Shown piece by piece: positions 18,403 through 41,243 of a stretch of 64,000 nucleotides of DNA. The DNA lies in contig NZ_SOHL01000009.1 of NCBI RefSeq assembly GCF_004403985.1, forward strand, positions 96,580 to 160,579. Direction: 5' to 3'. Position numbers and translations under genes: made by a program. The notes beneath the pieces were generated by a model that was given only the letters and a program-made list of their open reading frames with translations, was not told the DNA's origin and did not search any database. Position 1 is the first letter of the stretch, and every line of letters starts with the position of its first letter. This DNA comes from Cryobacterium gelidum (GTDB lineage Bacteria > Actinomycetota > Actinomycetes > Actinomycetales > Microbacteriaceae).

Positions 18403-19884
18403 TTACGGGTTCGGCGTGAGCGTATATTTCGTCGAGAGGTATTCCTGGATGCCTTCGAGCCCGCCCTCACGCCCGAGACCGGACTGCTTGACGCCGCCGA
18501 ACGGTGCGGCCGCGTTCGATACGACGCCGGTGTTCAGGCCCATCATGCCGGTCTGCAGCTTGTCGATCATGCGCTGGCCACGAGCAAGGTCGGTCGTGTA
18601 TATGTAGCTGATCAGGCCGAACTCGGTGTCGTTGGCGAGGCGCACGGCATCCACTTCGTCACTGAACGTGCTGATCGCCAGCACCGGGCCGAAGATTTCG
18701 TCGCGGAGAATGTCACTGCCCGGCTGCACATTGGTGAGCACGGTCGGCGAGTAGAACGTTCCTTCGCGTTCGATCGCCGCGCCGCCGGTGAGCAGGTTCG
18801 CGCCCCGGGTGATCGCATCCTGCACCAAGGCGTCGGCCTTGTCGACTGCTTTTTTATCGATCAGCGGGCCAATCGTGATTCCGGTCTCGGTGCCACGCCC
18901 GATCTGGAACGCTTCGACGCGTTCGGTGACCCGGCGGGCGAATTCGGCGGCGACGGACTCGTGCACGATGAAACGGTTGGCCGCGGTACAGGCCTGGCCG
19001 ATGTTGCGGAACTTCGCGAGGAGTGCACCATCGACGGCTTTATCGAGGTCGGCGTCGGCGAAGACGACGAACGGGGCGTTGCCGCCGAGCTCCATCGACG
19101 TGCGAAGCACGTTTTCGGCGGAGAGCTTGATGAGCGACTTACCAACCTCGGTCGACCCGGTGAAGCTGAGCTTGCGGAGGCGTCGGTCGGCGATGATCGG
19201 CTCGGTCACCGCACCGGACTGTGACGTCGTGATGACGTTGACGACACCGGCGGGCAGGCCGGCCTCTTCGAGCAGGGCCACGAAGTGCAGGGTGGTCAGC
19301 GGCGTAAGAGCGGCCGGCTTGACGACGACGGTGCAGCCGGCGGCGAGCGCCGGTGCGATCTTGCGGGTCGCCATGGCCAGCGGAAAGTTCCACGGGGTGA
19401 TCAAGAGACAGGGTCCTACCGGGTGTTGGGTGACGATCGTGCGACCGGTGCCCTCAGGATTGGTGCCGTAGCGACCACTGATGCGCACGGCCTCTTCGCT
19501 GAACCAGCGCAAAAACTCGCCGCCGTAGGCGACCTCGCCGAGCGCCTCGGGCAGCGGCTTGCCCATTTCGATAGTCATGAGCAGGGCGAACTCCTGCTTG
19601 CGTTCCTGCAGCAGGTCGAAGGTGCGGCGCAGAATTTCTCCGCGTACGCGGGCCGGAGTCGCTGCCCAGTCGGCCTGCGCGGCGTCGGCGGCGTCGAGGG
19701 CTGCAGCGCCATCGGCCACGCTCGCGTCGGCGATGGTCTTGATGACACGGCCGGTGGCCGGGTCGATGACATCGAGGGTGCGCTCGCCGGTGGCGGCAAC
19801 CCACTGCCCGTTGATGTAGAGCTGGCCCGGCACGCGCGCGAGCAGCTCGGATTCGGTTGTGCCTGCGTCGGTAACAGCTGTCAT
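18403..19884 (-). CDS. gabD: Succinate-semialdehyde dehydrogenase
   Basis: 493-aa aldehyde dehydrogenase oxidising succinate semialdehyde to succinate. The nucleophile lies in NIGQACTAANRF and the general base in MELGGNAPFVVF; ITPWNFPLAM and the C-terminal block FGGVKQSGLGREGG are typical of GabD. The ATG at 19884 has GGGAGA six bases upstream; a longer frame to 20133 is rejected. It is divergent from an IclR regulator and 1.1 kb from the homoprotocatechuate genes, whose aldolase step releases succinate semialdehyde. It therefore probably serves that pathway, though GABA breakdown is an alternative. Confidence 0.93.
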   Translation of the reverse strand: MTAVTDAGTTESELLARVPGQLYINGQWVAATGERTLDVIDPATGRVIKTIADASVADGAAALDAADAAQADWAATPARVRGEILRRTFDLLQERKQEFALLMTIEMGKPLPEALGEVAYGGEFLRWFSEEAVRISGRYGTNPEGTGRTIVTQHPVGPCLLITPWNFPLAMATRKIAPALAAGCTVVVKPAALTPLTTLHFVALLEEAGLPAGVVNVITTSQSGAVTEPIIADRRLRKLSFTGSTEVGKSLIKLSAENVLRTSMELGGNAPFVVFADADLDKAVDGALLAKFRNIGQACTAANRFIVHESVAAEFARRVTERVEAFQIGRGTETGITIGPLIDKKAVDKADALVQDAITRGANLLTGGAAIEREGTFYSPTVLTNVQPGSDILRDEIFGPVLAISTFSDEVDAVRLANDTEFGLISYIYTTDLARGQRMIDKLQTGMMGLNTGVVSNAAAPFGGVKQSGLGREGGLEGIQEYLSTKYTLTPNP

Positions 19885-19995
19885 TGCATCTCCCAATAGT
19901 TCGTCTACCCATCGATCGGACGGTAACAGCCTAGCTGCGCGCACCGCTCTGACCGCCCGACGGTTGCTCCTGCCCGACCGGTCGACCTGATCGTT

Positions 19996-20808
19996 GTGTC
20001 CGACGTGGGCGACGGCGAGAACGGATGCGAGAATACCAAGGTGTCGATTCCTGAGTTCGCCGCCGCGACCGACGAGGATGCGACCGCGGAAGCCGCGGCG
20101 CCGGAGCCTCACGCGCCCGCAGCCCACTCGCAAACCTTGTCACGCGGCATCCGCCTATTGGAGATTCTCGCCGAAACCGACGAACCGATGACCATCGTCG
20201 AACTCGCCGCCGCGCTCGTCGTGCACCGCTCGATCGCCTATCGCATCCTGCGTACCCTCGAAGATCACGGCCTCGTTATTCGCGATTCGGCCGGACTCGT
20301 GCGGCTGGGCCCGCGCCTGGCCGCGCTGGCTCGCGCGGTGTCTCGCGACCTGCAGGCCGCTGCCCTGCCCGTGCTCACCCGCATCGCCAACGAGCTCGGC
20401 ATGACAGCGTTTGTCGCCGTACTCGACCGGGGCGAGGTGGTCACGCTCGTGAGCATCGAGTCGCGGCAAGCCCACGCTACGGTCGCGCAGCGGCCGGGCA
20501 CGCGGCATCCACTGCAGTGGGGCGCACCCGGAATCGCCATCCAGTCCGGCCTGAACGCATCAGAGTGGGCCGCGCTCGGGCACGCCGACGCCCGCCGGAG
20601 CCAGGCCGGTGAGGTCGCTGGCATCGGCTACGCCTCCAGTCACGACGAGGTCATTCCCGGTCTGTCGTCGATCGCCGTGCCGCTGCTCGTGCCCGGGGAA
20701 TCACCCGCTGCCCTCGCGGTCGTGTACATCTCGAGCCTGCACTCCCCCGCCGACATCGGCGCCGCGCTCACCGCGGCTGCGCGCGCCATCACCGCCGAAC
20801 TCGGCTGA
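19996..20808 (+). CDS. IclR-family transcriptional regulator
   Basis: About 270 aa. The winged helix-turn-helix (SRGIRLLEILAETDEPMTIVELAAAL, YRILRTLEDHGLV) is followed by an IclR effector domain (TAFVAVLDRGEVVTLVSIES). The N-terminal 45 residues are Ala/Glu-rich and probably unstructured. The start is uncertain: GTG at 19996 gives the longest form, and GTG at 20041 is an alternative; neither has a clear ribosome site. It is divergent from gabD and upstream of the aromatic-acid uptake gene. IclR members often sense aromatic intermediates, so it could control either side. Confidence 0.88.
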   Translation: MSDVGDGENGCENTKVSIPEFAAATDEDATAEAAAPEPHAPAAHSQTLSRGIRLLEILAETDEPMTIVELAAALVVHRSIAYRILRTLEDHGLVIRDSAGLVRLGPRLAALARAVSRDLQAAALPVLTRIANELGMTAFVAVLDRGEVVTLVSIESRQAHATVAQRPGTRHPLQWGAPGIAIQSGLNASEWAALGHADARRSQAGEVAGIGYASSHDEVIPGLSSIAVPLLVPGESPAALAVVYISSLHSPADIGAALTAAARAITAELG

Positions 20809-21030
20809 CTACCCGGTCATACCCAGGCGCTGCAGCTCACCCGGACCCTAGCAGGGCGCAATTTCGCACGCCGAAACGCTGACGAGTCATGACGCACACA
20901 ATACTGACCAATAGGTAGGTAATCTTCAGTTTTGATGCCATACTGCCCCCGTGCTGGTTTCTTCGCACGATGCACACACTTTGCAGCAGCACCCGACTTA
21001 GCACCGCAGTGAGATACAAGGGAGTATTCC

Positions 21031-22377
21031 ATGGCATTGACGACCGAGCGCAGGCAGGCCAAGAGCGCTAAACGCAGCGAAGAACGGCGGGTTCTCGCCG
21101 GCACCATGGTGGGCACCACCATCGAGTGGTACGACTTCTTCATCTATGCCCAAGCCGCCGGTCTCGTGCTGGCCGGGCTGTTCTTCGCGCCGCTGGCCGG
21201 GGAGAACGAACCGCTCGCCCAGCTCATCGCCTGGGCCTCGCTGGGCATCAGCTTTCTGTTCCGCCCGCTCGGCGCCATTATCGCCGGGCACCTCGGCGAC
21301 CGGATCGGTCGGAAGGCGATGCTGGTCTTCACCCTCGTCATGATGGGCGCGGCCACCGCACTCATCGGTCTGCTGCCGACCTTCGACCAGATCGGCGTCT
21401 GGGCGCCCATCCTGCTCATCGTGCTGCGCATCCTGCAGGGCTTCTCCGCCGGCGGCGAGTGGGGCGGTGCCGCCCTCATGTCCGTCGAGCACGCGCCGGT
21501 GAACAAGCGCGGCTTCTTCGGTGCCTACCCGCAGATCGGCGTTCCGGTCGGCCTCATCCTCGCCACCGGCGTCATGATCCTGGTGACCGCCTCGATGAGT
21601 GAAGAAGCCTTTCTCAGCTGGGGCTGGCGCATCCCGTTCCTGGTCTCCGTGCTGCTCATCGTGGTCGGCTGGGTCATCCGTCGCGCGGTCGCCGAAAGCC
21701 CGGTCTTCAAGGAGATGCAGACCCGCAAGAAGGAATCTGCCGCCCCGCTCAAGCAGCTGTTCCAGAACCACTCGCGTCAGGTCATCCTCACCGCGCTCAT
21801 CTTCATCGCCAACAACGCGGCCGGCTACATGCTCATCGCGTTCTTCAACTCCTATGCCACCAAGCCCGCTGAAGCCGGCGGACTCGGCATGGAGCGCACT
21901 CCGGTGCTCATCGCGAGCACCATCGCGGCCGTATTCTGGCTCGCGTCGACCATGCTCGGCGGCATCCTCTCCGACAAGATCGGCCGCGTGCGCACGTTCC
22001 AGTTCGGCTACGCCTTTCTGTTCATCTGGGCCATCCCGATGTTCCTACTCATCGACACCGGCGACATCGCCTGGTTTGCGCTCTCCCTCATTGTTCTGGC
22101 GAGCGGGCTCGGCTTCTCCTACGGCCCGCAGGCGGCACTCTACGCCGAGATGTTCCCGGCCCAGGTGCGCTACTCGGGAGTTTCGATCGGCTACGCCCTC
22201 GGGGCGATCCTCGGTGGCGCCTTCGCCCCGTTGATCGCGCAACTGCTGCTCGATAAGACCGGCCACTCCTTTTCCATCGGCATCTACCTCATGGGCCTCG
22301 CCACGATCTCCTTTGTGGCGGTCACCCTCGTGAAGGAGACCCGCGGACTTCCGCTGGGCATCAGCACGCACGAGTAA
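21031..22377 (+). CDS. MFS transporter, metabolite:proton symporter type
   Basis: 448 aa with about 12 membrane helices. The family motif GDRIGRKAML follows helix 2, and WGWRIPF near the middle marks the MHS (metabolite:H+ symporter) branch, which imports organic acids. EWYDFFIYA near the N terminus is also typical. AAGGGAG precedes the ATG. It heads the homoprotocatechuate gene set, separated from the FAH-RraA gene by 85 bp. It is therefore the likely uptake system for 4-hydroxyphenylacetate or 3,4-dihydroxyphenylacetate. Confidence 0.9.
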   Translation: MALTTERRQAKSAKRSEERRVLAGTMVGTTIEWYDFFIYAQAAGLVLAGLFFAPLAGENEPLAQLIAWASLGISFLFRPLGAIIAGHLGDRIGRKAMLVFTLVMMGAATALIGLLPTFDQIGVWAPILLIVLRILQGFSAGGEWGGAALMSVEHAPVNKRGFFGAYPQIGVPVGLILATGVMILVTASMSEEAFLSWGWRIPFLVSVLLIVVGWVIRRAVAESPVFKEMQTRKKESAAPLKQLFQNHSRQVILTALIFIANNAAGYMLIAFFNSYATKPAEAGGLGMERTPVLIASTIAAVFWLASTMLGGILSDKIGRVRTFQFGYAFLFIWAIPMFLLIDTGDIAWFALSLIVLASGLGFSYGPQAALYAEMFPAQVRYSGVSIGYALGAILGGAFAPLIAQLLLDKTGHSFSIGIYLMGLATISFVAVTLVKETRGLPLGISTHE

Positions 22378-22402
22378 TTTCCGGTGACTCCCACCCGTGG
22401 AT

Positions 22403-22425
22403 CGTATATGTTTTCCGATATCACG
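22403..22425. promoter_or_regulatory. Candidate operator/promoter before the catabolic operon
   Basis: CGTATAT (22403-22409) faces ATATCACG (22418-22425), an inverted repeat broken by one extra base, in the AT-rich 85-bp gap before the FAH-RraA gene. GTATAT/GTATAC-like cores are common in operators of FadR-type GntR regulators, and such a regulator is encoded in this operon. TATATG could also be a -10 box. Confidence 0.3.
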
Positions 22426-22462
22426 ACTCGCCTGACCGTACGCACCGACGCGATTGGACACC

Positions 22463-23929
22463 ATGACCCTTGCACCCCTGCCAGATCTGGGTCGTCCCGG
22501 CAAGGTGATCGCCGTGCACACCAACTACCCTTCCCGGGCCGCGCAGCGCGGGCGCACCCCCGAGCAGCCGTCGTACTTCTTGAAACCCTCGACGAGCGTC
22601 GCGGCCAGCGGCGCCACCATCGTTCGCCCGAACGGATGCGAATTGCTCGCCTTCGAAGGCGAAATCGCGTTGGTCATCGGTCGCTCCCTGCGCGGTGTGA
22701 GCGTCGAAGACGGCTGGAGCGGCGTCGCCGGGGTCACGGCGGCCAACGACTTCGGCGTCTACGACCTGCGGCATGCCGACAGGGGCTCCAACCTGCGGTC
22801 CAAGGGCGGAGACGGTTTCACCCCCCTTGGTCCGCGCGTGATCGTGGCTGAGACCATCAACCCCGCCCAACTGCGCATTCGCACCTGGGTCAATGGTGAG
22901 CTCGTGCAGAGCGACACCACCGCCGATCTGCTATTCAGCTTCGGTCGCCTCGTCGCCGATCTGTCCCAGCTGATCACGCTCGAACGCGGCGATGTCATTC
23001 TCACCGGAACCCCGGCCGGCGCCTCCGTCGTGGTGCCGGGCGATGTGGTGGAGGTCGAGGTTGACGCGCCGACCATGCCCGGCGCACCGAGCACCGGCCG
23101 CCTGGTCACGACGGTGGCCGCGGGCACGACACCGCTCGGCGCGTTCGGCGCCGGTCCAAGGCTCGACGACCTGCAGCGGGCCGAAGCCTGGGGCTCAGCC
23201 GAGGAGGCCGGTCTGGCGCCCGAAACGACGTTCCTGCTGACCGCTGAACTCAAGGCACGCATCAACAGCGTCGGCACCGCCACGCTCAGCTCGCAGCTGC
23301 GCAAACGCGGACTCGACAACGTGTCGATCGACGGCCTGCAGTCCACCCGCCCGAGCACCCGGCTGGTCGGGCGCGCCCGTACCCTGCGTTTCATTCCCAA
23401 CCGAGAAGACCTCTTCACGGCGCACGGTGGCGGCTACAACGCCCAGAAGCGTGCGTTCGACGGCCTCGGCGTTGATGACGTGCTCGTGATCGAAGCCCGC
23501 GGCGAAACCGGCACCGGAACGGTCGGCGATATCCTCGCCCTGCGCGCCCAGGTGCAGGGCGCCGCCGGAATCGTCACCGACGGCGGTGTGCGCGACCTCG
23601 CCGCGGTCAGCGCGCTCGAGCTGCCCACCTACCACCGCGGCGGCCATCCGGCCGTGCTCGGCCGCCGCCACGTTCCGTGGGACGTGGACCTGACGATCGC
23701 CTGTGGCGGGGCATCCGTTCAGCCCGGCGACATCATCGTCGGCGACGCCGACGGCTTGCTCGTCATTCCGCCGCACCTCATCGAACAGCTCGTCACCGAC
23801 AGCATCGAGCAGGAGCGCGAAGAGACCTTCATTGCCGAGATGGTCGGCGCCGGCGAGGGCGTCGACGGCCTCTATCCGATGAATGCCGCGTGGAAGGAAA
23901 GGTATCGCGCATGGCTCACCCAGCAGTAA
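22463..23929 (+). CDS. FAH-family isomerase/decarboxylase fused to an RraA-family aldolase domain
   Basis: 488 aa in two domains. Residues about 1-205 are a fumarylacetoacetate-hydrolase domain: YFLKPS, metal ligands in FEGEIALVIG, RSKGGDGFTPLGP and LTGTPAG. This is the HpaG type, which decarboxylates 5-oxopent-3-ene-1,2,5-tricarboxylate. Residues about 245-480 are an RraA-family domain with Gly355-Asp356, a 20-residue gap and Arg377-Asp378, the motif of class II pyruvate aldolases (HMG/CHA aldolase). It overlaps the GntR gene by 19 bases. I chose ATG 22463 with TTGGA upstream; TTG 22454 is an alternative. One polypeptide could thus cover decarboxylation and an aldol or decarboxylase step. 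Confidence 0.9.
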   Translation: MTLAPLPDLGRPGKVIAVHTNYPSRAAQRGRTPEQPSYFLKPSTSVAASGATIVRPNGCELLAFEGEIALVIGRSLRGVSVEDGWSGVAGVTAANDFGVYDLRHADRGSNLRSKGGDGFTPLGPRVIVAETINPAQLRIRTWVNGELVQSDTTADLLFSFGRLVADLSQLITLERGDVILTGTPAGASVVVPGDVVEVEVDAPTMPGAPSTGRLVTTVAAGTTPLGAFGAGPRLDDLQRAEAWGSAEEAGLAPETTFLLTAELKARINSVGTATLSSQLRKRGLDNVSIDGLQSTRPSTRLVGRARTLRFIPNREDLFTAHGGGYNAQKRAFDGLGVDDVLVIEARGETGTGTVGDILALRAQVQGAAGIVTDGGVRDLAAVSALELPTYHRGGHPAVLGRRHVPWDVDLTIACGGASVQPGDIIVGDADGLLVIPPHLIEQLVTDSIEQEREETFIAEMVGAGEGVDGLYPMNAAWKERYRAWLTQQ

Positions 23930-24636
23930 ATTCAGCAGCGCAGATGGATGCCGCGCCTCCCGCCATCGGCAAAGCCCAGTTCGCCTACGCCTGGCTGAAA
24001 ACCCGCATCGACGATGGCACCTTCGGCCCCGGTTTTCGACTGGTCCTCGACCAGATCGCCCGGGACACCTCGATGAGCCCGGTTCCCGTACGGGAAGCGA
24101 TCCGCCGCCTCGAAGCGGAGGGACTCGTGACCTTCGTCCGCAATGTCGGGGCGCAGGTGGCCATGCTCGACCCCACCGAATATCGGCACACCATGCAGAC
24201 ACTCGGCCTGGTCGAGGGCGCCGCGACAGCGCTGTCGGCGCCGACCCTGAGCGTGGAAGCCATCGCTCGGGCCCGGCAGATCAACGCGCAGATGCGCGAC
24301 ACACTGCGCCACTTCGACCCGACACGCTTCACAACGCTCAACCGCGACTTTCATTCCGAGCTCTACAGCACCTGCCCCAACCCGCACATTCTCGACCTCG
24401 TGCACCGCGGCTGGAACCGTTTATCGGTGTTGCGCGAATCGACCTTCGGCTTCGTGCCGGGGCGCGCGGCCGAATCGGTGGCCGAGCACGACCAGATTCT
24501 CGACCTGGTTGAGCAGCGGGCATCCGCTCATGACATCGAACACGCTGCGCGCGACCATCGGCAGGCCACCCTGAACGCGTTTCTCTCGTCTCGCGCACCG
24601 ACCCATCACGTTGGCCCCCAGGAAGGCACCTCATGA
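23911..24636 (+). CDS. GntR-family regulator (FCD domain)
   Basis: 241 aa. The winged helix-turn-helix (QIARDTSMSPVPVREAIRRLEAEGLV) spans residues about 40-80. The FCD ligand domain follows, with His residues (NRDFHSELY, AEHDQILD) in positions that usually bind a metal and a carboxylate effector. The ATG at 23911 has GGAAAGG upstream and lies inside the end of the fusion gene; its stop overlaps the next start (ATGA). Being inside the operon, it probably controls it in response to a pathway acid. Confidence 0.92.
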   Translation: MAHPAVNSAAQMDAAPPAIGKAQFAYAWLKTRIDDGTFGPGFRLVLDQIARDTSMSPVPVREAIRRLEAEGLVTFVRNVGAQVAMLDPTEYRHTMQTLGLVEGAATALSAPTLSVEAIARARQINAQMRDTLRHFDPTRFTTLNRDFHSELYSTCPNPHILDLVHRGWNRLSVLRESTFGFVPGRAAESVAEHDQILDLVEQRASAHDIEHAARDHRQATLNAFLSSRAPTHHVGPQEGTS

Positions 24637-25583
24637 AGTTCCGCGGTAATCCGAACCAGATTCGCGGGTCCATCGCCGCGCTGATGACCCCGTTCACCGC
24701 CCGCGGAACCATCGACCATGCCGGCTTGACCAACCTGGTCAACTGGCAGATCGCCTCCGGCTCGCACGGCATCTCGATCGGCGGGTCGACCGGTGAACCG
24801 AGCTCGCAGACCATCGCCGAGCGCGCCGCCGCCATCCGCACCGTCGCGACGGCGATCGGCGAGCGCGTGCACTTCATGGCCGGAACCGGCTCCACCAGGC
24901 TCGACGAGACCCTCGAACTGACCGCGGCCGGCCGCGATGCCGGCATCGACGCCGCGCTCATCATCACGCCGTACTACGCTCGCCCCACCCAGGAGGCGCT
25001 CTACGTCTGGTACAAAACCGTCTGCGAAGAATTTCCCGACCTGCCGATCGTGGCCTACAACGTGCCGAGCCGCACCGCCGTCGACATCGCGCCCGAGACG
25101 GTCTACCGCCTCTTTCGCGATCTCGATAACTTCGTCGGAGTCAAGGAGACCACCAAGGACTTCGAGCACTTTTCCCGCGTGTTGCACCTGTGCGGCCCCG
25201 ATCTGCTGGTCTGGAGCGGCCTCGAACTGCTCTGCCTGCCACTCATGGCCCTCGGCGGTGCCGGGTTCGTCAGCGCCACGAGCAACATCGCGCCGGCCGC
25301 CGTCGCCCAGATGTTCGAGGCCTGGGAAGCCGGCGATTTCGTCACCGCCCGCACGATTCACTACGGCCTGCACCCGCTCGTCGACCTGCTGTTCGTGGAA
25401 ACCAACCCGGCACCGGGCAAGTGGGTCATGGCCCAGCGCGGCCTGATCGAGAGTGGCTTCGTGCGCCCGCCGCTGATCGAACCGACCCCCGGCGGCCTGG
25501 CCAAAATGCGCGTGCTCCTGGACGCCGGCTCCGAGTACCTCACGTCGACCGCCGGCTTCATCCTGACCGGTGCCTCCAAATGA
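24633..25583 (+). CDS. DapA-family lyase/aldolase of aromatic-acid catabolism
   Basis: 316-aa member of the dihydrodipicolinate synthase/N-acetylneuraminate lyase superfamily. The Schiff-base Lys lies in FVGVKETTKD and the proton-relay Tyr in IVAYNVPSRT; GGSTGEPSS replaces the GTTGE pyruvate-carboxylate motif of true DapA. The location between hpaG-like and hpaE genes argues against lysine synthesis. It more likely makes or breaks a C-C bond to pyruvate, or acts as a hydratase-aldolase, on the ring-cleavage product, where HpaH and HpaI act in enterobacteria. GGAAGG lies 7-9 bases before the ATG; the ends overlap both neighbours. Confidence 0.88.
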   Translation: MKFRGNPNQIRGSIAALMTPFTARGTIDHAGLTNLVNWQIASGSHGISIGGSTGEPSSQTIAERAAAIRTVATAIGERVHFMAGTGSTRLDETLELTAAGRDAGIDAALIITPYYARPTQEALYVWYKTVCEEFPDLPIVAYNVPSRTAVDIAPETVYRLFRDLDNFVGVKETTKDFEHFSRVLHLCGPDLLVWSGLELLCLPLMALGGAGFVSATSNIAPAAVAQMFEAWEAGDFVTARTIHYGLHPLVDLLFVETNPAPGKWVMAQRGLIESGFVRPPLIEPTPGGLAKMRVLLDAGSEYLTSTAGFILTGASK

Positions 25584-27103
25584 TCGAATCCAGCACGCAG
25601 GCGCACTACGTACCCGCTGACCTGCCCACCAGCCTCCGTCATTTCATCGGTGGCGAATTCGTTGACAGCCTCGGCGGCGAGACTTTCGACGTGCTCGACC
25701 CGGTCTCGAACCAGACCTACGCCACCGCGGCGGCCGGCCAGCAGGCCGACGTCGACCTGGCCGTCGCCGCCGCCAAGCACGCCTTCGATACCGGACCCTG
25801 GCCGCGCATGCTCCCCCGCGTCCGCGCCAGGGTGCTGCACCGCATCGCCGACGCGGTCGAGGAGCAGGATACCCGGCTCGCCGAACTCGAAACGTTCGAC
25901 ACCGGGCTGCCCATCACGCAGGCGCTCGGCCAGGCGCAGCGCGCGAGCGAGAACTTTCGCTTCTTCGCCGACCTGATCGTGGCGCAGGCCGACGACACCT
26001 ACAAGGTGCCGGGCAAGCAGATCAACTACGTCAACCGCAAGCCGGTCGGTGTCGCCGGGCTGATCACCCCGTGGAACACCCCGTTCATGCTGGAAAGCTG
26101 GAAGCTCGCGCCCGCGCTCGCCTCCGGCTGCACCGTCGTGCTGAAACCGGCCGAATTCACGCCGCTGTCGGCGAGCCTGTGGGCGGAGATCTTCGCCGCC
26201 GCCGGGGTACCCGACGGCGTGTTCAACCTGGTCAATGGTCTCGGCGAGGAGGCCGGCGATGCGTTGGTCAAGCATCCGGATGTGCCGCTCATCTCGTTCA
26301 CCGGCGAGACGACCACCGGCCAGACCATCTACCGCAATTGCGCCGCGCACCTCAAGGGCATGTCGATGGAACTCGGCGGCAAGTCGCCCGCCGTCGTCTT
26401 CGCCGACGCCGACCTCGACGCCGCGATCGACTCGACCCTGTTCGGCGTGTTCAGCCTCAACGGCGAGCGCTGCACGGCGTCGAGCCGCATCCTGGTCGAG
26501 CGCTCCATCTACGACGAATTCTGCGCCCGCTACGCTGCCCGCGCTGCGAGCATCGTGGTCGGCGACCCGCACGACCCGACAACCGAGGTCGGTGCTCTCG
26601 TGCACCCCGAGCACTACGCCAAGGTCATGAGCTACGTCGAGATCGGCAAGACCGAGGGACGTCTGCTCGCCGGCGGCGGTCGCCCGGCCGGGCTACCCGA
26701 GTGGTTGGCACAGGGCAACTACGTCTCCCCCACGGTGTTTGCCAACGTCGCGCCGACCGCCCGCATCTTTCAGGAGGAGATCTTCGGCCCGGTCGTGACC
26801 ATCACGCCCTTCGAAACGGATGCCGAAGCGCTCACCCTGGCCAACGGCGTGAAGTACGGGTTGGCTGCGTACATCTGGACCACAGACCTCGTTCGCGCGC
26901 ACAACTTCGCGCAGTCGGTCGATGCTGGAATGGTCTGGTTGAACTCGCACAACGTGCGTGACCTGCGCACCCCGTTCGGCGGCGTCAAGGCCTCCGGCCT
27001 CGGCCACGAGGGCGGCTACCGGTCCATCGACTTCTACACCGATTCGCAGGCCGTGCACATCACGCTCGCTCCCGTGCACACGCCCCGTTTCGGCGGCAAG
27101 TAG
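25580..27103 (+). CDS. hpaE: 5-carboxymethyl-2-hydroxymuconate semialdehyde dehydrogenase
   Basis: 507-aa aldehyde dehydrogenase. Motifs include ITPWNTPFML, MELGGKSPAVVF (general base Glu), NGERCTASSR (nucleophile Cys) and FGGVKASGLGHEGG. The RDLRTPFGG block and TDSQAVHI ending fit HpaE, which oxidises the semialdehyde formed by HpaD with NAD. The ATG at 25580 overlaps the stop of the DapA-like gene (ATGA), so translation is coupled. HpaD follows 43 bp later. Assignment rests on family resemblance plus the adjacent dioxygenase. Confidence 0.93.
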   Translation: MIESSTQAHYVPADLPTSLRHFIGGEFVDSLGGETFDVLDPVSNQTYATAAAGQQADVDLAVAAAKHAFDTGPWPRMLPRVRARVLHRIADAVEEQDTRLAELETFDTGLPITQALGQAQRASENFRFFADLIVAQADDTYKVPGKQINYVNRKPVGVAGLITPWNTPFMLESWKLAPALASGCTVVLKPAEFTPLSASLWAEIFAAAGVPDGVFNLVNGLGEEAGDALVKHPDVPLISFTGETTTGQTIYRNCAAHLKGMSMELGGKSPAVVFADADLDAAIDSTLFGVFSLNGERCTASSRILVERSIYDEFCARYAARAASIVVGDPHDPTTEVGALVHPEHYAKVMSYVEIGKTEGRLLAGGGRPAGLPEWLAQGNYVSPTVFANVAPTARIFQEEIFGPVVTITPFETDAEALTLANGVKYGLAAYIWTTDLVRAHNFAQSVDAGMVWLNSHNVRDLRTPFGGVKASGLGHEGGYRSIDFYTDSQAVHITLAPVHTPRFGGK

Positions 27104-27146
27104 CTCGTTTTCAGTCCCGCGGCCACCGATCAGCGAGGAGAACCCC

Positions 27147-28220
27147 ATGACAATCCCGATCCCGACCCCCACCCAGGCCCCGCCGGATATTCTGCGCTGC
27201 GCCTACATGGACATCGTCGTGACCGACCTCGCCACGTCGCGCGAATTCTACGTCGACATTCTCGGCCTCGTCGTCACCGAGGAGAGCGACACCGAGATCT
27301 ACCTGCGCAGCTTCGAGGAATTCATCCACCACAACCTCGTGCTGCGCCGGGGGCCCATCGCCGCCGTCGCCGCGATGGCCTTCCGGGTGCGCAGCCCCGA
27401 AGATGTCGACCTGGCCGAGGCCTACTATCGGGAACTCGGCTGCCGCACCGAACGCCGCCCCGAGGGCTTCATCAGGGGCATCGGCGACAGCGTGCGCGTC
27501 GAAGACCCGCTCGGGTTTCCCTATGAATTCTTTTACGCAACCACCCACGTCGAGCGCCTCGCCTGGCGCTATGACCTGCAGGGCCCCGGCGCGCTCGTGC
27601 GGCTGGACCACTTCAACCAGGTCACCCCCGACGTCGGCCGCGGCCGTAAATACCTCGAAGATCTAGGCTTCCGCGTCACCGAAGACATCCAGGATTCCGA
27701 CGGCGTCACCTACGCAGCCTGGCTGCGCCGCAAGGACACCGTGCACGACACCGCCCTCACCGGCGGCAACGGCCCGCGTATGCACCACATCGCCTTCGCC
27801 ACCCACGAGAAGCACAACATCATCTATATCTGCGACAAGCTCGGCGCGCTGCGCAAGAGCGACCTGATCGAGCGCGGACCTGGTCGGCACGGCGTCTCGA
27901 ACGCGTTCTACCTCTACCTTCGTGACCCCGACGGCCACCGCGTCGAGATCTACACGCAGGACTATTACACCGGTGACCCCGATAACCCCGTCGTCACCTG
28001 GGACGTGCACGACAACCAGCGCCGGGACTGGTGGGGCAACCCCGTCGTACCCAGCTGGTACACGGACGCGTCGCTCGTGCTCGACCTCGATGGCAAGCCC
28101 CAGCCTGTGCTCGAACGCACCGAGTCGAGTGAAATGGCCGTGACCGTCGGCGCTGACGGATTCTCCTACACCCGCAAGAACGACGAGCTTGCCGGCTTCA
28201 AACTCGGTACCACCCTCTAG
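27147..28220 (+). CDS. hpaD: 3,4-dihydroxyphenylacetate 2,3-dioxygenase (homoprotocatechuate dioxygenase)
   Basis: 357-aa type I extradiol dioxygenase (vicinal oxygen chelate fold) that opens the homoprotocatechuate ring next to the diol. Metal ligands fall at His155, His214 and Glu267, and second-shell His200 and Tyr257 are present. These are the same numbers as in the well-studied Brevibacterium fuscum enzyme, so the protein is collinear with it and should be active. Whether it uses Fe(II) or Mn(II) cannot be told. GAGGAG lies six bases before the ATG. It is the last gene of the operon. Confidence 0.96.
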   Translation: MTIPIPTPTQAPPDILRCAYMDIVVTDLATSREFYVDILGLVVTEESDTEIYLRSFEEFIHHNLVLRRGPIAAVAAMAFRVRSPEDVDLAEAYYRELGCRTERRPEGFIRGIGDSVRVEDPLGFPYEFFYATTHVERLAWRYDLQGPGALVRLDHFNQVTPDVGRGRKYLEDLGFRVTEDIQDSDGVTYAAWLRRKDTVHDTALTGGNGPRMHHIAFATHEKHNIIYICDKLGALRKSDLIERGPGRHGVSNAFYLYLRDPDGHRVEIYTQDYYTGDPDNPVVTWDVHDNQRRDWWGNPVVPSWYTDASLVLDLDGKPQPVLERTESSEMAVTVGADGFSYTRKNDELAGFKLGTTL

Positions 28221-33994: not shown

Positions 33995-34162
33995 CCCCGC
34001 CGGCTCACGGCAACCCCCGACGGCACCGGTCAGCACCTGTCCCGGTGGCGCCCCAGCGCAACGCGCAGCCCTTACCGGCGGCAGATCCAGGCGTCGGAGT
34101 CTCCGAATGCGTGCAGGCGCCGGTGCGGGAGCGCACAGTCGCAACGGGAGCAGCGGAGGACC

Positions 34163-34471
34163 TCAGCCACGAGCGGCAATCGCCTCACGAAGTTGCTCCC
34201 CCGTCGGCCATCCCAAAAGCCCGCCGGGTGTCGAGTAGACCCGGCAGGCCAGCTGCTCGATGCGCCCCGCCGACGGAAACAAATCGGTGCCGTCGATCAG
34301 GATGGTCGGCGACCCGGCAAACCACACCTCCGCCGCCGCGGCGGGTGAGTCGATCAGCGTGTGGGTGATGGCGGCGGTCTGGTGGCCAGTCGCGTCCAGT
34401 GCTGCCCGAAGCAAACGTGCCGCTTCACGCCCGCCCGCACAATCAACGATGTGCAAAATTTCTGCCTGCAT
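34163..34471 (-). CDS. Small thioredoxin-fold-like protein
   Basis: 102 aa. An N-terminal strand ending in VDCAGG, the block AGSPTILIDGTDLFP, then ACRVY and GWPTGEQLREAI resemble the small thioredoxin-like, alkylmercury-lyase-like proteins of actinobacteria. Only one Cys (VDCAGG) is near the expected active site, so no CxxC redox centre exists. The ATG at 34471 has GGAG close upstream. The 291 bp before it hold no gene that I can support. Confidence 0.65.
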   Translation of the reverse strand: MQAEILHIVDCAGGREAARLLRAALDATGHQTAAITHTLIDSPAAAAEVWFAGSPTILIDGTDLFPSAGRIEQLACRVYSTPGGLLGWPTGEQLREAIAARG

Positions 34472-34762
34472 AGTCTCCAGAATACGCACACGTCCCTGAC
34501 TGCCGGCGAGATCAAATCAGGCTGGTTGCGGCGCCAGCGCGGCGAGCGCAGCATCCGGCATCCTGCCCGGAGGAGTGTGCGCTGGCACTGCACTGTCTGT
34601 ATCGGTCTGAAACAGGGTGCAGAGTGCCGGTGGCCCCTCATATTGCAGCCTTGAGCTTGAGAAATTCCGGTGGCAGGGCCGCCAGTCGCCATTTTGAGGC
34701 AAGTGGGTATCGAAAGGATCGAACTACTTTTAAAACGAGATGCGGATTCGTACCCTCATCAA

Positions 34763-35296
34763 TCAATCTTCCGGTGGGTACCAAACGCGGTCACCATCGA
34801 CCTTCGCGAAGCTGGTCATGGTGTGCGGCTTGGTCGAGGTCGGGCTCATGATGTCGGCAACCTGAAGGCCCCGAGCCAGCAACGCGTCTCCGATCAGCGA
34901 CCGGTGACAACGCCAGGGCACAGCCTCGGCACACATGATCGCCACCATCTGCTTCTTCGCCAGCGCCGTCAACTCCTCGACGCCGACAACGAACTCGGAG
35001 GTTTGCATGTAGTCGGCGTAGTTGCGGAAGCTCCTGTTACGCCACGCTTCGTTGATCGATGCTTCCGCTGCCGGTGTATGCCGTAAGCCTCCGAGCTTTG
35101 GGAGTCGCTGATAGTCGATTCCGTGCTCCGGCATGCTTGTGACGAGTTCGTGTTCCCCGAATTGCGGGTTGTGACGAGACCCCGGAACGGTGCGCACGTC
35201 GATGAGTCGTTCGACACCGTGTGCTTTCAACATTCCAACGAACTCATCAATCGGATGAGTCGAATGCCCGATCGTGTACACCCAGGTTTCGGCCAT
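34763..35296 (-). CDS. DUF488-family protein
   Basis: 177 aa. The family marks are YTIGHSTHPIDEF at the N terminus, LIDVRTVPGSRHNPQF and the C-terminal block CAEAVPWRCHRSLI. DUF488 proteins are widespread and uncharacterised; the conserved Cys and His suggest a catalytic or metal site. The ATG at 35296 has GAGAG upstream. It is the last chromosomal gene before the left end of the tRNA-Thr island. Confidence 0.88.
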   Translation of the reverse strand: MAETWVYTIGHSTHPIDEFVGMLKAHGVERLIDVRTVPGSRHNPQFGEHELVTSMPEHGIDYQRLPKLGGLRHTPAAEASINEAWRNRSFRNYADYMQTSEFVVGVEELTALAKKQMVAIMCAEAVPWRCHRSLIGDALLARGLQVADIMSPTSTKPHTMTSFAKVDGDRVWYPPED

Positions 35297-35832
35297 GCTC
35301 TCATTGAACCGTACATGCTCGAGCCCGCATCAGGAATGTCAGATTTGCGCGCCCACACCGTGCTCCTCAATAACGTGCGGGAGGGCCTCGCATGCTGGCC
35401 GACACCGTGTCGACTCCGCCGCTGAGACGATTTTGGACACTGACTCCGACCAGGATTTCTAGTGGAGCCGCCTGTCAGAATCGAACTGACGACCTTCTCA
35501 TTACGAGTGACCGATGGGCGCCCAGAAACGGGCGTTGCGGCGTCGAAATCGTTGATTTCACGGGCTTATTGAGTTTGATGTGATCACCCATAACAGCGTC
35601 CTTTCCGTTCAAATGTGGGCAAATTGTGGGCAAGAAAATGATCCGCTCACTCTAAGAATCTGTGATGTATCAGGACATCTTTTACGAATCTGTATCAGGT
35701 GAATCGTCGAGAGCGGGTACCGACCTGCGCCCCCGGTCCAGGTTGGTGGCGGACGTCGGCAAGAGTTCGTCACCTACCTGGCGTTCCGCAAGCCGTAGCG
35801 GACCGACACGGCTCGTCGCTATTCTCACCCCC
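35297..35832. other. Gene-free stretch spanning the left island boundary
   Basis: No convincing gene. It holds the left attachment repeat (35439-35510). The 19-mer at 35610-35628 is also found at 40833-40851 inside the integrase tail, so a second piece of integrase-like sequence may lie here. Short open frames have no domain character. Confidence 0.6.
35439..35510. repeat. Left attachment repeat (attL)
   Basis: 72 bases identical to 40901-40972. The first part (35439-35462) encodes the last residues of the integrase tail (TDSDQDF and a stop); the rest is the 3' 48 bases of tRNA-Thr, including the T-arm and part of the anticodon arm. It ends mid-tRNA, so this copy is not a functional tRNA gene. 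Confidence 0.9.
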
Positions 35833-36297
35833 ATGACGGACTCTTCTGACGCCGCCCGAGTCGCTGCCGTGAAACTGTCGTCCCCGCCAATTTGCGACGA
35901 ATGCGAGCTGCCGCAGGAACAGATCACGCACAGTTATGTCTGCTAATGTGCGTGCGCGACCGACGGCTTCGCCAAACGCTTCCACCCCACTTTCGAGGAG
36001 CTCACCGAGCCTGACTTGCTCATCATCATGGGCCTGCCTCTCTGCAACCGCTGCCACCAGCGTCGAGAGATGACGCGCATCGGTAACATCATGCGTTTCG
36101 AGTGTGGAAACCCGGCCTGTAACGAGCTGGTCCACCTCATCAGTGCCAAGTCCGCGCAGGCCAATAAGCTGCGGCCTGTGGCAGCTCTCCAGCTGGCGCG
36201 CCTCACGCTCGTGCTTTCCGAACCCCGGATTGACCCGACACTACCGCCCGGGCGAGGTCGCTCTACGTTGTCGGGGGTGCCCCCGCAGGACAGTTAG
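35833..36297 (+). pseudogene. Cys-rich zinc-ribbon-like gene with an in-frame TAA
   Basis: One reading frame runs from ATG 35833 to a stop at 36297, broken once by TAA at 35944-35946 (codon 38). Before the stop is ICDECELPQEQ and HSYVC; after it CACATDGFAKRF, PLCNRCHQRREM and FECGNPACNELVHL. The CxxC pairs on both sides look like two halves of zinc-binding modules. This suggests a once-continuous protein of about 154 residues. A downstream start (36016 or 36028) could still make the C-terminal half. Family not recognised. Confidence 0.6.
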
Positions 36298-36623
36298 CTG
36301 GTCGGCGCGCCAGAAAGATCGAATCCGGGCCGATGTCGATTATGTCAGCTTGTAACGTATTCATCCGCCCTTCATGCAGAAAGATATAAATCGTGGGTGC
36401 ACTGGCTGATAACGACCGGTGGTTTTGCATGCCTCGATGCTCGACTGACGGCTCTGGACAACGCCGGCAAGTCGACAGATCCGTCATCCTTCCCAAACGC
36501 GCCGTCGCTTCAACTCCAGCCAGGAACCGGCGCTGCGACGAGACATCCCCCAATCAAGCGGGACGTAACCGACTGCCTTACGGGAAGGCCTGAGCCTTCT
36601 GGCTGCTTCAGCGAGAAGCGTGC
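36298..36623. other. Stretch with no supported gene
   Basis: Composition is mixed and somewhat AT-richer than the chromosome. A 76-codon frame (36397-36627) has no motif, ribosome site or gene-like codon pattern. Probably decayed island DNA. Confidence 0.5.
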
Positions 36624-36767
36624 GTGACCGTTTCGCAAGTCAATTCGACCAATAACGGCGAACCGAGAGCGGTCCTGAATCGCCTGCACGAAGCAGTCGA
36701 GCGATCGGACGGCGTCCGCAGCGCGCGGACAGGAGCAATCCGCACCAACCCCGGCTGGCGTTCATGA
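36624..36767 (+). CDS. Possible 47-codon ORF next to the IS
   Basis: GTG to TGA, 47 aa, hydrophilic (LNRLHEAVERSDGVRSART). A weak GAGAAG lies upstream. It ends 25 bases before the left inverted repeat of the IS. It may be a short gene or a fragment of a gene that has been deleted. Evidence is only the open frame and its non-random composition. Confidence 0.25.
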   Translation: MTVSQVNSTNNGEPRAVLNRLHEAVERSDGVRSARTGAIRTNPGWRS

Positions 36768-36792
36768 CGAAGCTATCCTGGTTAGCACTGAC

Positions 36793-36818
36793 GGGACTGC
36801 CCCAGGTTCAGTTGACTC
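36793..36818. repeat. IS left inverted repeat
   Basis: 26 bases beginning GGGACTGCCCCAGG and ending GTTGACTC. It is the partner of 38018-38043, with three mismatches. Confidence 0.85.
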
Positions 36819-36833
36819 AGAGGGTTAGTGGTT

Positions 36834-37696
36834 TCAGGCGGCCTTGAGGGCCATGTGTATTGTCACAAACTCGATCGGGGTGAGCTTGCCGAGGCGGCGT
36901 TGCCGGCGCTCGCGGTGGTAGGTCCGCTCGATCCAAACCACCATCGCCAGGCGCAGTTCCTCTCGGGTTGACCACCGCTGCCGGTCGAGGACGTTCTTTT
37001 GCAGCAGCGCGAAGAAGGACTCCATCGCGGCGTTGTCGCCACACGCGCCAACGCGGCCCATCGATCCAGTGATGCCGTTGTTCTTCAGCACCCGCAGGAA
37101 CGCGTGGGAACGGAACTGAGACCCGCGATCGCTATGCAGAATCGTGCCATCGATGTGGCGTTGGCCGATCGCGTTGCGCGCCGCAGCCACCGCCAGGGAC
37201 GCCGTCATCCTGGAGTCGATGGAGTACCCGACGATCTTGTTCGAGTAGACGTCCTTGATCGCGTAAAGGTATATCTTGCCTTCGTCAGTGCGGTGCTCGG
37301 TGATGTCGGTGAGCCAGAGCTGGTTCGGGCGCGTCGCGGTGAGCTTCCGTTTAACGAGGTCGTCATGCACCGGCGGCCCGGCCTTGCAGGTCAGGCCACG
37401 CTTCTTCGCGAACACGCTCCACAGCCGCTGCTGGGAACCAGCCGCCAGACTCAGTTCTCACCCGCCGCGAGGCCCGCGCGGCCCAGTTCGTCGGAGATGA
37501 ACCGGTAACCGAACGCGGGGTCGTTCTGGTGGGCGTCCAAGGCGGCGTTGGTGAGGTGCGCGTCATCCCAGTCGCGCTGGGAGACGGGGTTGCGCTTCCA
37601 TTGGTAAAACGCTTGTGTGGAGAAACGCAACACCCGGCAGGTCACCGTGACAGGGATCCTGTCGACGGCCAGTTCACGGACCAGCGGGTACATCAT
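36834..37696 (-). pseudogene. IS3-family transposase OrfB, frameshifted
   Basis: The N-terminal part reads from MMYPLVRELAVDRIP to the HTH_21-like block YRFISDELGRAGL, then meets TGA at about 37455. A few codons later the frame shifts, and the catalytic core resumes (SVFAKKRGLTCKAGPP, LTDITEH, HSDRGSQ, NAAMESFF, giving the D-D-E triad). Both a stop and a frameshift separate the halves, so full-length transposase cannot be made. It starts at ATG 37696, overlapping the orfA stop. Confidence 0.85.
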
Positions 37697-37977
37697 TTTG
37701 GGTTGACGTCCCGGGAAAGATAGGCGACGGCCCGGCGCATGACCTCGGCTTCTTGCTCGAGCAGCCGGATACGTTTCTTCGCATCTCGCAGTTCTGCGGA
37801 CTCCTTCTCGGTCAGGCCCGGCTTGACGCCGTCCTCGACGTCGGCTTTTTTCAGCCAGTTCATCAGGCAAGACTCCGAAATTCCAAAGTCTTTCGCGATC
37901 TGGTTCAGCGGGGCTTCGTGCTTCCAGGCGACCGCGACAACATCACGGCGAAACTCGGGTGGGTAGGGCTTGGGCAT
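37693..37977 (-). CDS. IS3-family transposase OrfA
   Basis: 94 aa. A helix-turn-helix of the HTH_8/HTH_29 type (PPEFRRDVVAVAWKHEAPL, AKDFGISESCLMNWLKKA) is followed by a leucine-zipper-like helix (LRDAKKRIRLLEQEAEVMRRA) that mediates multimerisation. It normally makes OrfAB by programmed frameshifting into orfB near CCAAAATGATG. Because orfB is broken, this protein alone is probably inert. Confidence 0.85.
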   Translation of the reverse strand: MPKPYPPEFRRDVVAVAWKHEAPLNQIAKDFGISESCLMNWLKKADVEDGVKPGLTEKESAELRDAKKRIRLLEQEAEVMRRAVAYLSRDVNPK

Positions 37978-38017
37978 GATGACATCTTTCCAGTGAAGAC
38001 GAATCTCCACAGGTCAG

Positions 38018-38043
38018 GAGTCAACCAAACCGGGGGCAGTCCC
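38018..38043. repeat. IS right inverted repeat
   Basis: 26 bases ending GGGGGCAGTCCC. It is the reverse complement of the left end with three mismatches and lies just upstream of orfA. Confidence 0.85.
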
Positions 38044-38440
38044 TGGGGCGACCCGGTCGCCTGGGCCGCCCCGATGCACTTCGGCTATGTCCGGCCTTCC
38101 CACCCGGCATCGGCCCACACCCGGTGTCTCACCTCCGACTACTGCACGACAGTTCACCATGAGACGGCGACAAAGCGGCGATGCCTGGCCGCTGAAATTA
38201 TCGTCAACGAGCTGCAAAGACACCCCACCGACGCCTGGTAACGCCGACTCGGACAGATCCACGCGCTGGCACACCTCGGCAGTGTCTTCAACGCCTCGCT
38301 CGTCGCCGCCCGCATAACGTCCACTATCGTTATCATCAGCCGGTGGCTTCGTAGACGAACCCACTAATTCGGCTGCCGAATGCCCGCAGCAGATCACAGA
38401 GGCTGTTCGGTGAACAACACGATGATTCTGGGGGTTGCTT
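38044..38440 (+). other. Remnant coding-like stretch between the IS and the GGDEF gene
   Basis: One frame starting at the IS edge stays gene-like through CLAAEIIVNELQRHPTDAW, meets TAA at 38239-38241, and continues in the same frame as RRLGQIHALAHLGSVFNASLVAARI until a TAA near 38367. This looks like the 3' part of a gene whose 5' part is gone. I do not recognise it. The last 70 bases are the leader of the GGDEF-EAL gene. Confidence 0.35.
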
Positions 38441-40750: not shown

Positions 40751-40768
40751 TCGGGATTCCTGAAACCC

Positions 40769-40924
40769 ATGGGTGGCTTCGAAGACGACTTAGACGCCGT
40801 TGCAGACACCCTCAATAACCGCACACTTCGAACAAATGTGGGCAAATTGTGCGCGAATGTGGCAAATTCGGACAAACATACCACTGATACGGTTTCGGAA
40901 ACTGACTCCGACCAGGATTTCTAG
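40769..40924 (+). pseudogene. 3' fragment of a tyrosine integrase
   Basis: About 51 codons ending at TAG 40922-40924, immediately beside the tRNA 3' end. FEDDLDAVADTLN is the typical tail seen after the catalytic Tyr in actinobacterial phage and island integrases. The final residues TDSDQDF are encoded by the attachment repeat itself. The catalytic domain is missing; the GGDEF-EAL gene ends just upstream, so a deletion probably removed it. Confidence 0.65.
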
Positions 40925-40972
40925 TGGAGCCGCCTGTCAGAATCGAACTGACGACCTTCTCATTACGAGTGA
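40901..40972. repeat. Right attachment repeat (attR)
   Basis: 72 bases identical to 35439-35510. It covers the end of the integrase tail and the 3' 48 bases of the intact tRNA-Thr gene. Identity stops abruptly after GAGTGA, where the chromosomal tRNA continues to its 5' half. Confidence 0.9.
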
Positions 40973-41000
40973 GATGCTCTACCAACTGAGCTAAGGCGGC
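40925..41000 (-). tRNA. tRNA-Thr (anticodon CGT)
   Basis: 76 nt including encoded CCA. The acceptor stem GCCGCCT/AGGCGGC, D-arm (AGCTCAGTTGGTAGAGC), anticodon arm with CGT and T-arm (GTTCGATTC) all fold. It decodes ACG. It serves as the integration site of the island to its left; the intact copy was kept. Confidence 0.96.
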
Positions 41001-41243
41001 GTTACCGAAGCGCCCCATGAGGCACTCGGTGACACAGCTCTCAAGCCTAGTCGTTTCTGCGAGTGATTCTGTACACCTCGGCGAATGAGGCAGTGTGGCG
41101 AGGCGCAGGTCGAACGGATAGGCGTTTCCTGCAGGACCCCGTGGCGAGGCTTGAACTCACGCCGTCCGGGCACTTCGGTTTCGATCGAAATGCTCCAAAT
41201 ATTTCACCGCGCCTTGTCACACCTCACAGACCTGCCCCTTCGA

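Follow-up and report, generated by a model that had tools for sequence, protein, structure and literature searches.

The subject of this analysis is a predicted homoprotocatechuate operon of Cryobacterium gelidum (assembly GCF_004403985.1), which lies in a stretch of 64,000 nucleotides of contig NZ_SOHL01000009.1 (positions 96,580 to 160,579 of the forward strand), referred to here as the window. Five genes follow one another on the plus strand in the order FAH-RraA fusion, gntR, dapA-like, hpaE and hpaD, and the reading frames overlap at the fusion/gntR, gntR/dapA-like and dapA-like/hpaE junctions. Upstream of the operon are a gene for a probable succinate-semialdehyde dehydrogenase (SSADH) on the opposite strand, an IclR regulator gene and an MFS transporter gene. 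Our comparisons suggest that the DapA-family protein probably takes the place of two classical enzymes of the pathway, the hydratase HpaH and the aldolase HpaI. The features are, in window coordinates:

22463-23929, plus strand: FAH-RraA fusion (NF009399, 827 bits), proposed to convert 5-carboxymethyl-2-hydroxymuconate (CHM) to 2-oxohept-3-enedioate (OHED)
23911-24636, plus strand: GntR/FCD regulator within the operon (PF00392, PF07729)
24633-25583, plus strand: DapA-family protein (PF00701), proposed hydratase-aldolase replacing HpaH and HpaI
25580-27103, plus strand: HpaE, CHM semialdehyde dehydrogenase (TIGR02299)
27147-28220, plus strand: HpaD, homoprotocatechuate 2,3-dioxygenase (TIGR02295)
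18403-19884, minus strand: aldehyde dehydrogenase, probable SSADH for the last step (TIGR01780, 547 bits, below the cut-off of 646)
19996-20808, plus strand: IclR-family regulator (PF09339, PF01614)
21031-22377, plus strand: MFS metabolite/H+ symporter, candidate importer (TIGR00883, 405 bits, below the cut-off of 443)

The original prediction, made from the letters and open reading frames, described this DNA as a homoprotocatechuate-to-succinate gene set with non-canonical middle steps. Its two anchors are clear, as HpaD scores 421.1 bits against the curated TIGR02295 cut-off of 321.4 and HpaE 658.2 bits against the curated TIGR02299 cut-off of 638.35. The fusion and the DapA-family gene are present as described, and the gene set is real. 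It omitted the GntR/FCD regulator between the fusion and the dapA-like gene as well as the transporter gene between the IclR regulator and the fusion, and it placed the SSADH gene 1.1 kb away, while the start of that gene is about 2.6 kb from the fusion start. The substrate of the putative SSADH is assigned at family level, its score being below the family cut-off; of 19 Cryobacterium loci, some with truncated stretches, 12 have a relative with more than 70% identity upstream of the cluster.

The host genome (3.47 Mb in 30 contigs, completeness rated 100%) was searched as a whole with profiles, and matches were reported at E<=0.001. Neither HpaH (TIGR02312) nor HpaI (TIGR02311) had a match anywhere in it, so homologues elsewhere in the genome, which would have spoken against a replacement, were looked for and not found at this threshold. 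The predicted absence of the isomerase HpaF is less firm than that of HpaH and HpaI: PF02962 had no match in the host or in any of 40 genomes, but none of 14 control genomes matched either, and the one ground for trusting the result is that the profile recognises the E. coli HpaF protein with 171 bits. An HpaB-type hydroxylase (PF03241) was likewise unmatched in the host genome, with matches in 4 of the 14 control genomes. Growth of the host on 4-hydroxyphenylacetate, the substrate proposed originally, is therefore uncertain, and homoprotocatechuate is the safer choice.

To compare the locus with its relatives, the fusion family was searched in 199 genomes of the host's family, 71 of which carried it over cut-off. 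About 20 kb was taken around each fusion (less at contig ends), and two loci found via HpaD (G008 and G343) were added, giving 73 loci with both fusion domains. Gene content was assigned by tblastn at E<=1e-8, taking the best match per place, with reference proteins from E. coli BL21. Of these loci, 48 carry hpaH and hpaI without a DapA-like gene, 16 carry a DapA-like gene without either, none carries both and 9 carry neither within the stretch. The two arrangements thus exclude each other in all 64 fusion loci that carry one of them. HpaF or the N-terminal half of HpaG was the best match at no place in the 73 stretches.

Forty genomes were then searched whole, namely all 16 with the DapA type, all 9 with neither and 15 of the 48 with hpaH and hpaI. 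HpaH was matched with at least 324 bits, and HpaI with at least 293 bits, in 24/24 genomes without the DapA-like gene and in 1/16 with it. Conversely, the DapA-like protein was found at E<=1e-60 in 16/16 DapA-type genomes and 0/24 others. In the nine loci with neither, HpaH and HpaI are located elsewhere in the genome. The sole exception is G483, which has a further cluster (L129) containing its HpaH and HpaI. Weaker family matches occur in some DapA-type genomes, for HpaH in G414 (best 211 bits) and as extra copies in G483, and for HpaI in G477, G404, G423 and G497 (105-162 bits). Because no HpaI match in the 40 genomes passes the model cut-off of 369 (best 331), HpaI is named here by place and score gap. 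The expectation that hpaF, hpaH and hpaI would be lost wherever the trio occurs thus holds for HpaH and HpaI, at the scores given above, in 15 of 16 DapA-type genomes; HpaF was unmatched regardless of type, as it was in the control genomes. The locus L068 comes from a genome (G459) in which about 15 kb separates two fusion genes, just one of them with hpaE next to it within the stretch. Another locus (L131, from G413) carries HpaD, HpaE, GntR, RraA, hpaI and hpaH, and the search of its stretch yielded no FAH half; its fusion may have been split, lost or decayed.

How often the arrangements changed was examined with a concatenated tree of the FAH-RraA, HpaE and HpaD proteins (72 rows, L068 and L121 left out) and with single-gene trees (71 rows, leaving out the Embleya locus L001, which was also left out of the column comparison below). 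On the concatenated tree the cluster type needs 9 changes, and 7 independent pairs are forced by supported branches (sign test, p 0.016 with 7 pairs, in this tree and the HpaD tree). The DapA-type window groups with two hpaH+hpaI-type genomes of the same genus (G473 and G534) with 100% support. For the single genes, the number of changes, with supported independent pairs in brackets, was 5 (4) for FAH-RraA, 9 (5) for HpaE, 11 (7) for HpaD and 8 (3) for GntR. Depending on the gene tree, supported branches thus point to at least 3 to 7 exchanges between the two arrangements; the trees are silent on which arrangement is older.

The association of the DapA-like gene with this pathway extends beyond the host's family. 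Among the best 80 of 522 named relatives of the protein, with up to 8 kb considered on each side, hpaE adjoins 79, hpaD 78 and both fusion domains 78, and hpaH or hpaI stands beside none. Three of the relatives with missing genes (L179, L189 and L209) lie at the end of a contig and one (L187) does not. The latter, from Leifsonia sp. SCN 70-46, carries the fusion, GntR, the DapA-like protein and HpaE (66%), with no HpaD within about 8 kb. These 80 relatives come from Cryobacterium and other Microbacteriaceae, Amycolatopsis and its kin, Streptomyces, Arthrobacter, Aeromicrobium and others, and chance neighbourhood of the DapA-like gene was rejected on these loci. Some DapA-type relatives have HpaB-like genes beside the cluster. 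Two Rhodococcus plasmids (L002 and L003, 8001-9760) carry a DapA-like protein of 65-66% identity beside a lone FAH gene, and neither HpaD nor HpaE was detected within 8 kb. This DapA-like enzyme may serve another pathway.

Of 396 genomes sampled from the phylum, 13 had an HpaD over cut-off. These comprise the window, six fusion clusters with hpaH and hpaI (G008, G225, G257, G268, G316 and G343), four clusters with a lone FAH gene and a DapA-like gene (G081, G032, G058 and G111), one with a lone RraA gene and a DapA-like gene (G109), and G338, in which HpaD (over cut-off) shares a 6.5-kb contig with an FAH gene, without a DapA-like gene, hpaH or hpaI. In the lone-FAH clusters (L042-L045), FAH, DapA-like, HpaB, HpaC, HpaE and HpaD genes stand together, the FAH match of L042 being in two pieces. 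Two of the four lone FAH proteins score 300 and 274 bits against TIGR02303 (cut-off 276). No RraA protein over the NF006093 cut-off was found in the four lone-FAH genomes, two of which have weak matches elsewhere (95-101 bits). HpaH had no match in any of the four lone-FAH genomes or in the lone-RraA genome. In the latter (locus L046), the lone RraA and DapA-like genes adjoin a second type of dioxygenase (38% identical to HpaD), and no FAH gene was detected in the stretch. A similar dioxygenase (38-39%) and a lone RraA gene occur together with hpaH and hpaI in L126-L130 (e.g. L128:8006-12800), so the exchange of the DapA-like gene for hpaH and hpaI seems to occur in this second setting as well. 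Because no hpaE was detected in L126-L130, the ring-cleavage substrate there must give the acid directly or another dehydrogenase must be used. An SSADH gene is adjacent in two of these five loci, and the two examined for a regulator have one of the LysR type.

Cryobacterium sp. Y50 and C. levicorallinum encode counterparts of the DapA-like protein with 94% identity. The window protein passes the curated model of dihydrodipicolinate synthase (DHDPS), TIGR00674, with 274.6 bits (cut-off 206), and automatic annotation could thus label it as a lysine-pathway synthase. In an alignment of 21 rows, the E. coli DHDPS residues T45, Y133, R138, K161 and G186 are kept in all rows and Y107 in 20, and T44 is Ser in 17. 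The Schiff-base Lys and the Tyr correspond to K171 and Y142 of the DapA-like protein (21/21 rows). The conserved residues indicate a working Schiff-base site and do not discriminate DHDPS from the proposed function. R138, which we take to bind the far carboxylate in DHDPS, would suit a substrate ending in a carboxylate. The structure model (mean pLDDT 89.9, alternating strands and helices) may be read as a TIM barrel. We also considered altered lysine-feedback residues as evidence and rejected the argument as uninformative: in all 21 rows the residues at two E. coli feedback positions have changed, yet the same positions are altered in the DHDPS of the host as well, and another two feedback positions are kept.

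The fusion passes the cut-off of NF009399 (PRK12764, FAH-RraA family) with 826.5 bits against 444; this model describes a family without an assigned function. The nearest match of its FAH half is the C-terminal part of HpaG, to which it is 42% identical in E. coli. HpaG is recognised by two FAH domains, each over cut-off. The fusion has one, which scores 150 bits with TIGR02303 (cut-off 276) and 109 bits with TIGR02305 (cut-off 229). The RraA half passes NF006093 (225 bits, cut-off 208). The original prediction, which left HpaG out of account, has to be corrected accordingly, as the FAH half belongs to HpaG's own family and only the RraA half is foreign. In 58 aligned rows (57 of the 72 references and Embleya), E65, E67 and D96 of the FAH half and D356-X20-R377-D378 of the RraA half are invariant. 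The former are presumably the FAH metal ligands, and the latter we take to be the metal/enolate motif of RraA-like pyruvate aldolases and decarboxylases; therefore both halves look catalytic. The fusion appears to stand in the place of HpaF and the two-domain HpaG in both arrangements. It is not a dedicated partner of the DapA-like gene, as had been assumed: hpaH and hpaI remain adjacent in 48 of the 73 fusion loci, and a specific link was rejected, with 57 of the 73 lacking a DapA-like gene.

Taken together, we consider it probable that the DapA-like protein replaces both HpaH and HpaI as a Schiff-base hydratase-aldolase acting on OHED. HpaD would open the homoprotocatechuate ring, HpaE would oxidise the resulting semialdehyde to CHM, and the fusion would convert CHM to OHED by isomerisation and decarboxylation, with the RraA half weakly favoured as the decarboxylating one. 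Lys171 of the DapA-like protein would then form a Schiff base with OHED, water would be added at C4, and a retro-aldol reaction would split the adduct into pyruvate and succinic semialdehyde, which the SSADH would convert to succinate. In such a cleavage the aldol step of DHDPS would run backwards, with succinic semialdehyde replacing aspartate semialdehyde, and would be combined with a hydration of the NahE type. NahE-type hydratase-aldolases are members of the DapA family that hydrate and cleave 2-oxo-3-enoates with aromatic substrates. OHED is the substrate of HpaH in the published pathway (PMC3053370). Our main argument for the hydration is that, among the candidates for the middle steps, the DapA-like protein alone is shared by these clusters that lack HpaH. 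It would thus stand in for two enzymes and not for one, as the original prediction had it. That prediction's picture of a complete pathway with replaced classical enzymes stands insofar as the lower pathway looks complete and HpaH and HpaI are missing; the parts of HpaG, the fusion and the DapA-like protein in it were misjudged. The full scheme is more tentative, and we regard it as possible rather than likely: four enzymes would lead from homoprotocatechuate to pyruvate and succinic semialdehyde, the fusion carrying out the three HpaF/HpaG steps with its RraA site as a vinylogous decarboxylase, and a DapA-family hydratase-aldolase for an open-chain dicarboxylate having been repeatedly exchanged with HpaH/HpaI.

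Several observations weigh against the replacement of both enzymes. The best NCBIfam match of the DapA-like protein is TIGR02313 ('HpaI-NOT-DapA') with 326.7 bits, below the cut-off of 396.7, and the name of this model covers the aldolase step only. The window protein and its relatives in L061, L001, L002 and L046 all fall below the cut-off (312-347 bits, 5/5), and two relatives from lone-FAH clusters pass it (406 and 398, cut-off 397). The similarity to NahE is remote (24% identity over 156 residues). For the lone-FAH and lone-RraA genomes, the genome-wide search covered HpaH, not HpaI. G338 has only a 38-bit HpaH match in its genome, and the DapA-like gene was looked for there on the 6.5-kb contig alone. 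It is also possible that the host has an unrecognised isomerase, since the Corynebacterium aurimucosum authors assign hpaF to a chromosomal gene outside the cluster (PMC2830990). In addition, the sign test cannot reach 0.05 below 6 pairs, as is the case for the FAH-RraA, HpaE and GntR trees. The FAH-RraA tree follows cluster type more closely (5 changes) than those of HpaE (9) and HpaD (11), and columns separating the two types above 0.6 are more frequent in the fusion (18/472) than in HpaE (1/492) or HpaD (1/353). Part of the change might therefore lie in the fusion itself, leaving room for a hydratase role.

This last point leads to the strongest alternative, that the DapA-like protein replaces HpaI only and that the fusion carries out the hydration, HpaH being a member of the FAH family (E. 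coli HpaH matches PF01557 with 34 bits). The naming of TIGR02313 for the aldolase step and the co-variation of the fusion with cluster type agree with it. At position 471 of the fusion, for example, Tyr is found in 16/16 DapA-type rows and Phe in 47/55 hpaH+hpaI-type rows. However, Tyr471 also occurs in 8/55 rows of the latter type, and the co-variation may reflect linkage, the fusion and dapA-like genes being close, or adaptation. Moreover, none of the 48 loci with hpaH and hpaI lacks the fusion, and HpaH is missing as well where a lone FAH (4/4 genomes) or a lone RraA (1/1) accompanies the DapA-like gene. We consider a hydrating fusion unlikely. A second alternative is that an unrecognised hydratase and aldolase are encoded elsewhere in the genome and that the DapA-like protein has another role in the operon. 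The searches covered the named families, which leaves some room for this; against it stand the lack of any HpaH or HpaI family match at E<=0.001 in the host and the exclusion in 64/64 fusion loci, so that it seems quite improbable. Finally, that the protein is an ordinary lysine-pathway DHDPS found here by chance, as its score with the DHDPS model (275 vs 206 bits) and its conserved catalytic residues would allow, is hardly tenable, since the genome encodes another DHDPS over cut-off (C24:331355-332197), to which it is 32% identical, and 79 of its best 80 relatives adjoin hpaE; a housekeeping role was rejected on the second DHDPS.

The reading that the DapA-like protein replaces HpaH and HpaI can be set beside known systems. 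The locus resembles the E. coli hpa/hpc pathway in HpaE (47% identity) and in the FAH half, and the same products, pyruvate and succinic semialdehyde, are expected. It differs from it in that HpaF, the second FAH domain of HpaG, HpaH and HpaI were not found here, whereas an RraA domain and a DapA-like protein are present; a tblastn search of the hpa region of E. coli with the window HpaD gave no match at E<=1e-20. The plasmid clusters of Paenarthrobacter aurescens (pTC2) and Rhodococcus NBC_00297 show the same order of fusion, GntR regulator and hpaE, followed by hpaD in NBC_00297, while the pTC2 record has a gap without a listed gene at that place. Unlike the window, both keep hpaH and hpaI, as does the hpaGLEDHI-gabD2 cluster of C. 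aurimucosum (PMC2830990). The pTC2 fusion (L218:7028-8440) is recorded as 'putative Dimethylmenaquinone methyltransferase'.

The RraA half shares the Arg-Asp pair (R377 and D378) with the RraA-like HMG/CHA aldolase, for which PMC5065237 gives enolate and metal roles of Arg-123 and Asp-124 as well as oxaloacetate decarboxylase activity. It differs from this aldolase in being joined to an FAH domain and in scoring 74 and 63 bits with the NCBIfam models (cut-offs 179 and 304.5).

Neighbouring clusters suggest what might feed the pathway. An amine oxidase and an FAD monooxygenase are encoded beside the Rhodococcus NBC_00297 cluster, and a phenylacetaldehyde dehydrogenase and an FAD monooxygenase beside that of pTC2. 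Amines were proposed to feed into hpaGLEDHI of C. aurimucosum (PMC2830990). By analogy, the pathway might be supplied from aromatic amines or through a PheA/TfdB-type hydroxylase. Arthrobacter sp. Rue61a, for which A. aurescens TC1 is the nearest sequenced relative, grows on homoprotocatechuate (PMC3534580); through this kinship, clusters of the FAH-RraA type are likely functional. Elsewhere in the window, the region 34000-42000 has its lowest G+C content (0.60-0.62) and carries an rve integrase-core gene (36834-37415), a gene for a GGDEF-EAL protein (38435-40750) and a tRNA-Thr gene (40925-41000); it is possibly a mobile island.

A DapA-family protein in place of HpaI is already implied by TIGR02313, which files such a protein beside homoprotocatechuate genes as 2,4-dihydroxyhept-2-ene-1,7-dioate aldolase. 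The loss of HpaH, which is not in the model's name, is the new addition. In the portions of the open-access literature covered, we found no description of a joint replacement of HpaH and HpaI or of a role for the fusion, and searches pairing the two aromatic substrates with DHDPS, hydratase-aldolases or the HpaI of Thermus turned up nothing of apparent relevance. If the proposed reading is correct, it would assign functions to proteins that are filed as lysine-pathway synthase or menaquinone methyltransferase in Cryobacterium, Amycolatopsis, Streptomyces, Arthrobacter and others, and the operon would be a clean case from nature in which one enzyme has replaced two unrelated ones.

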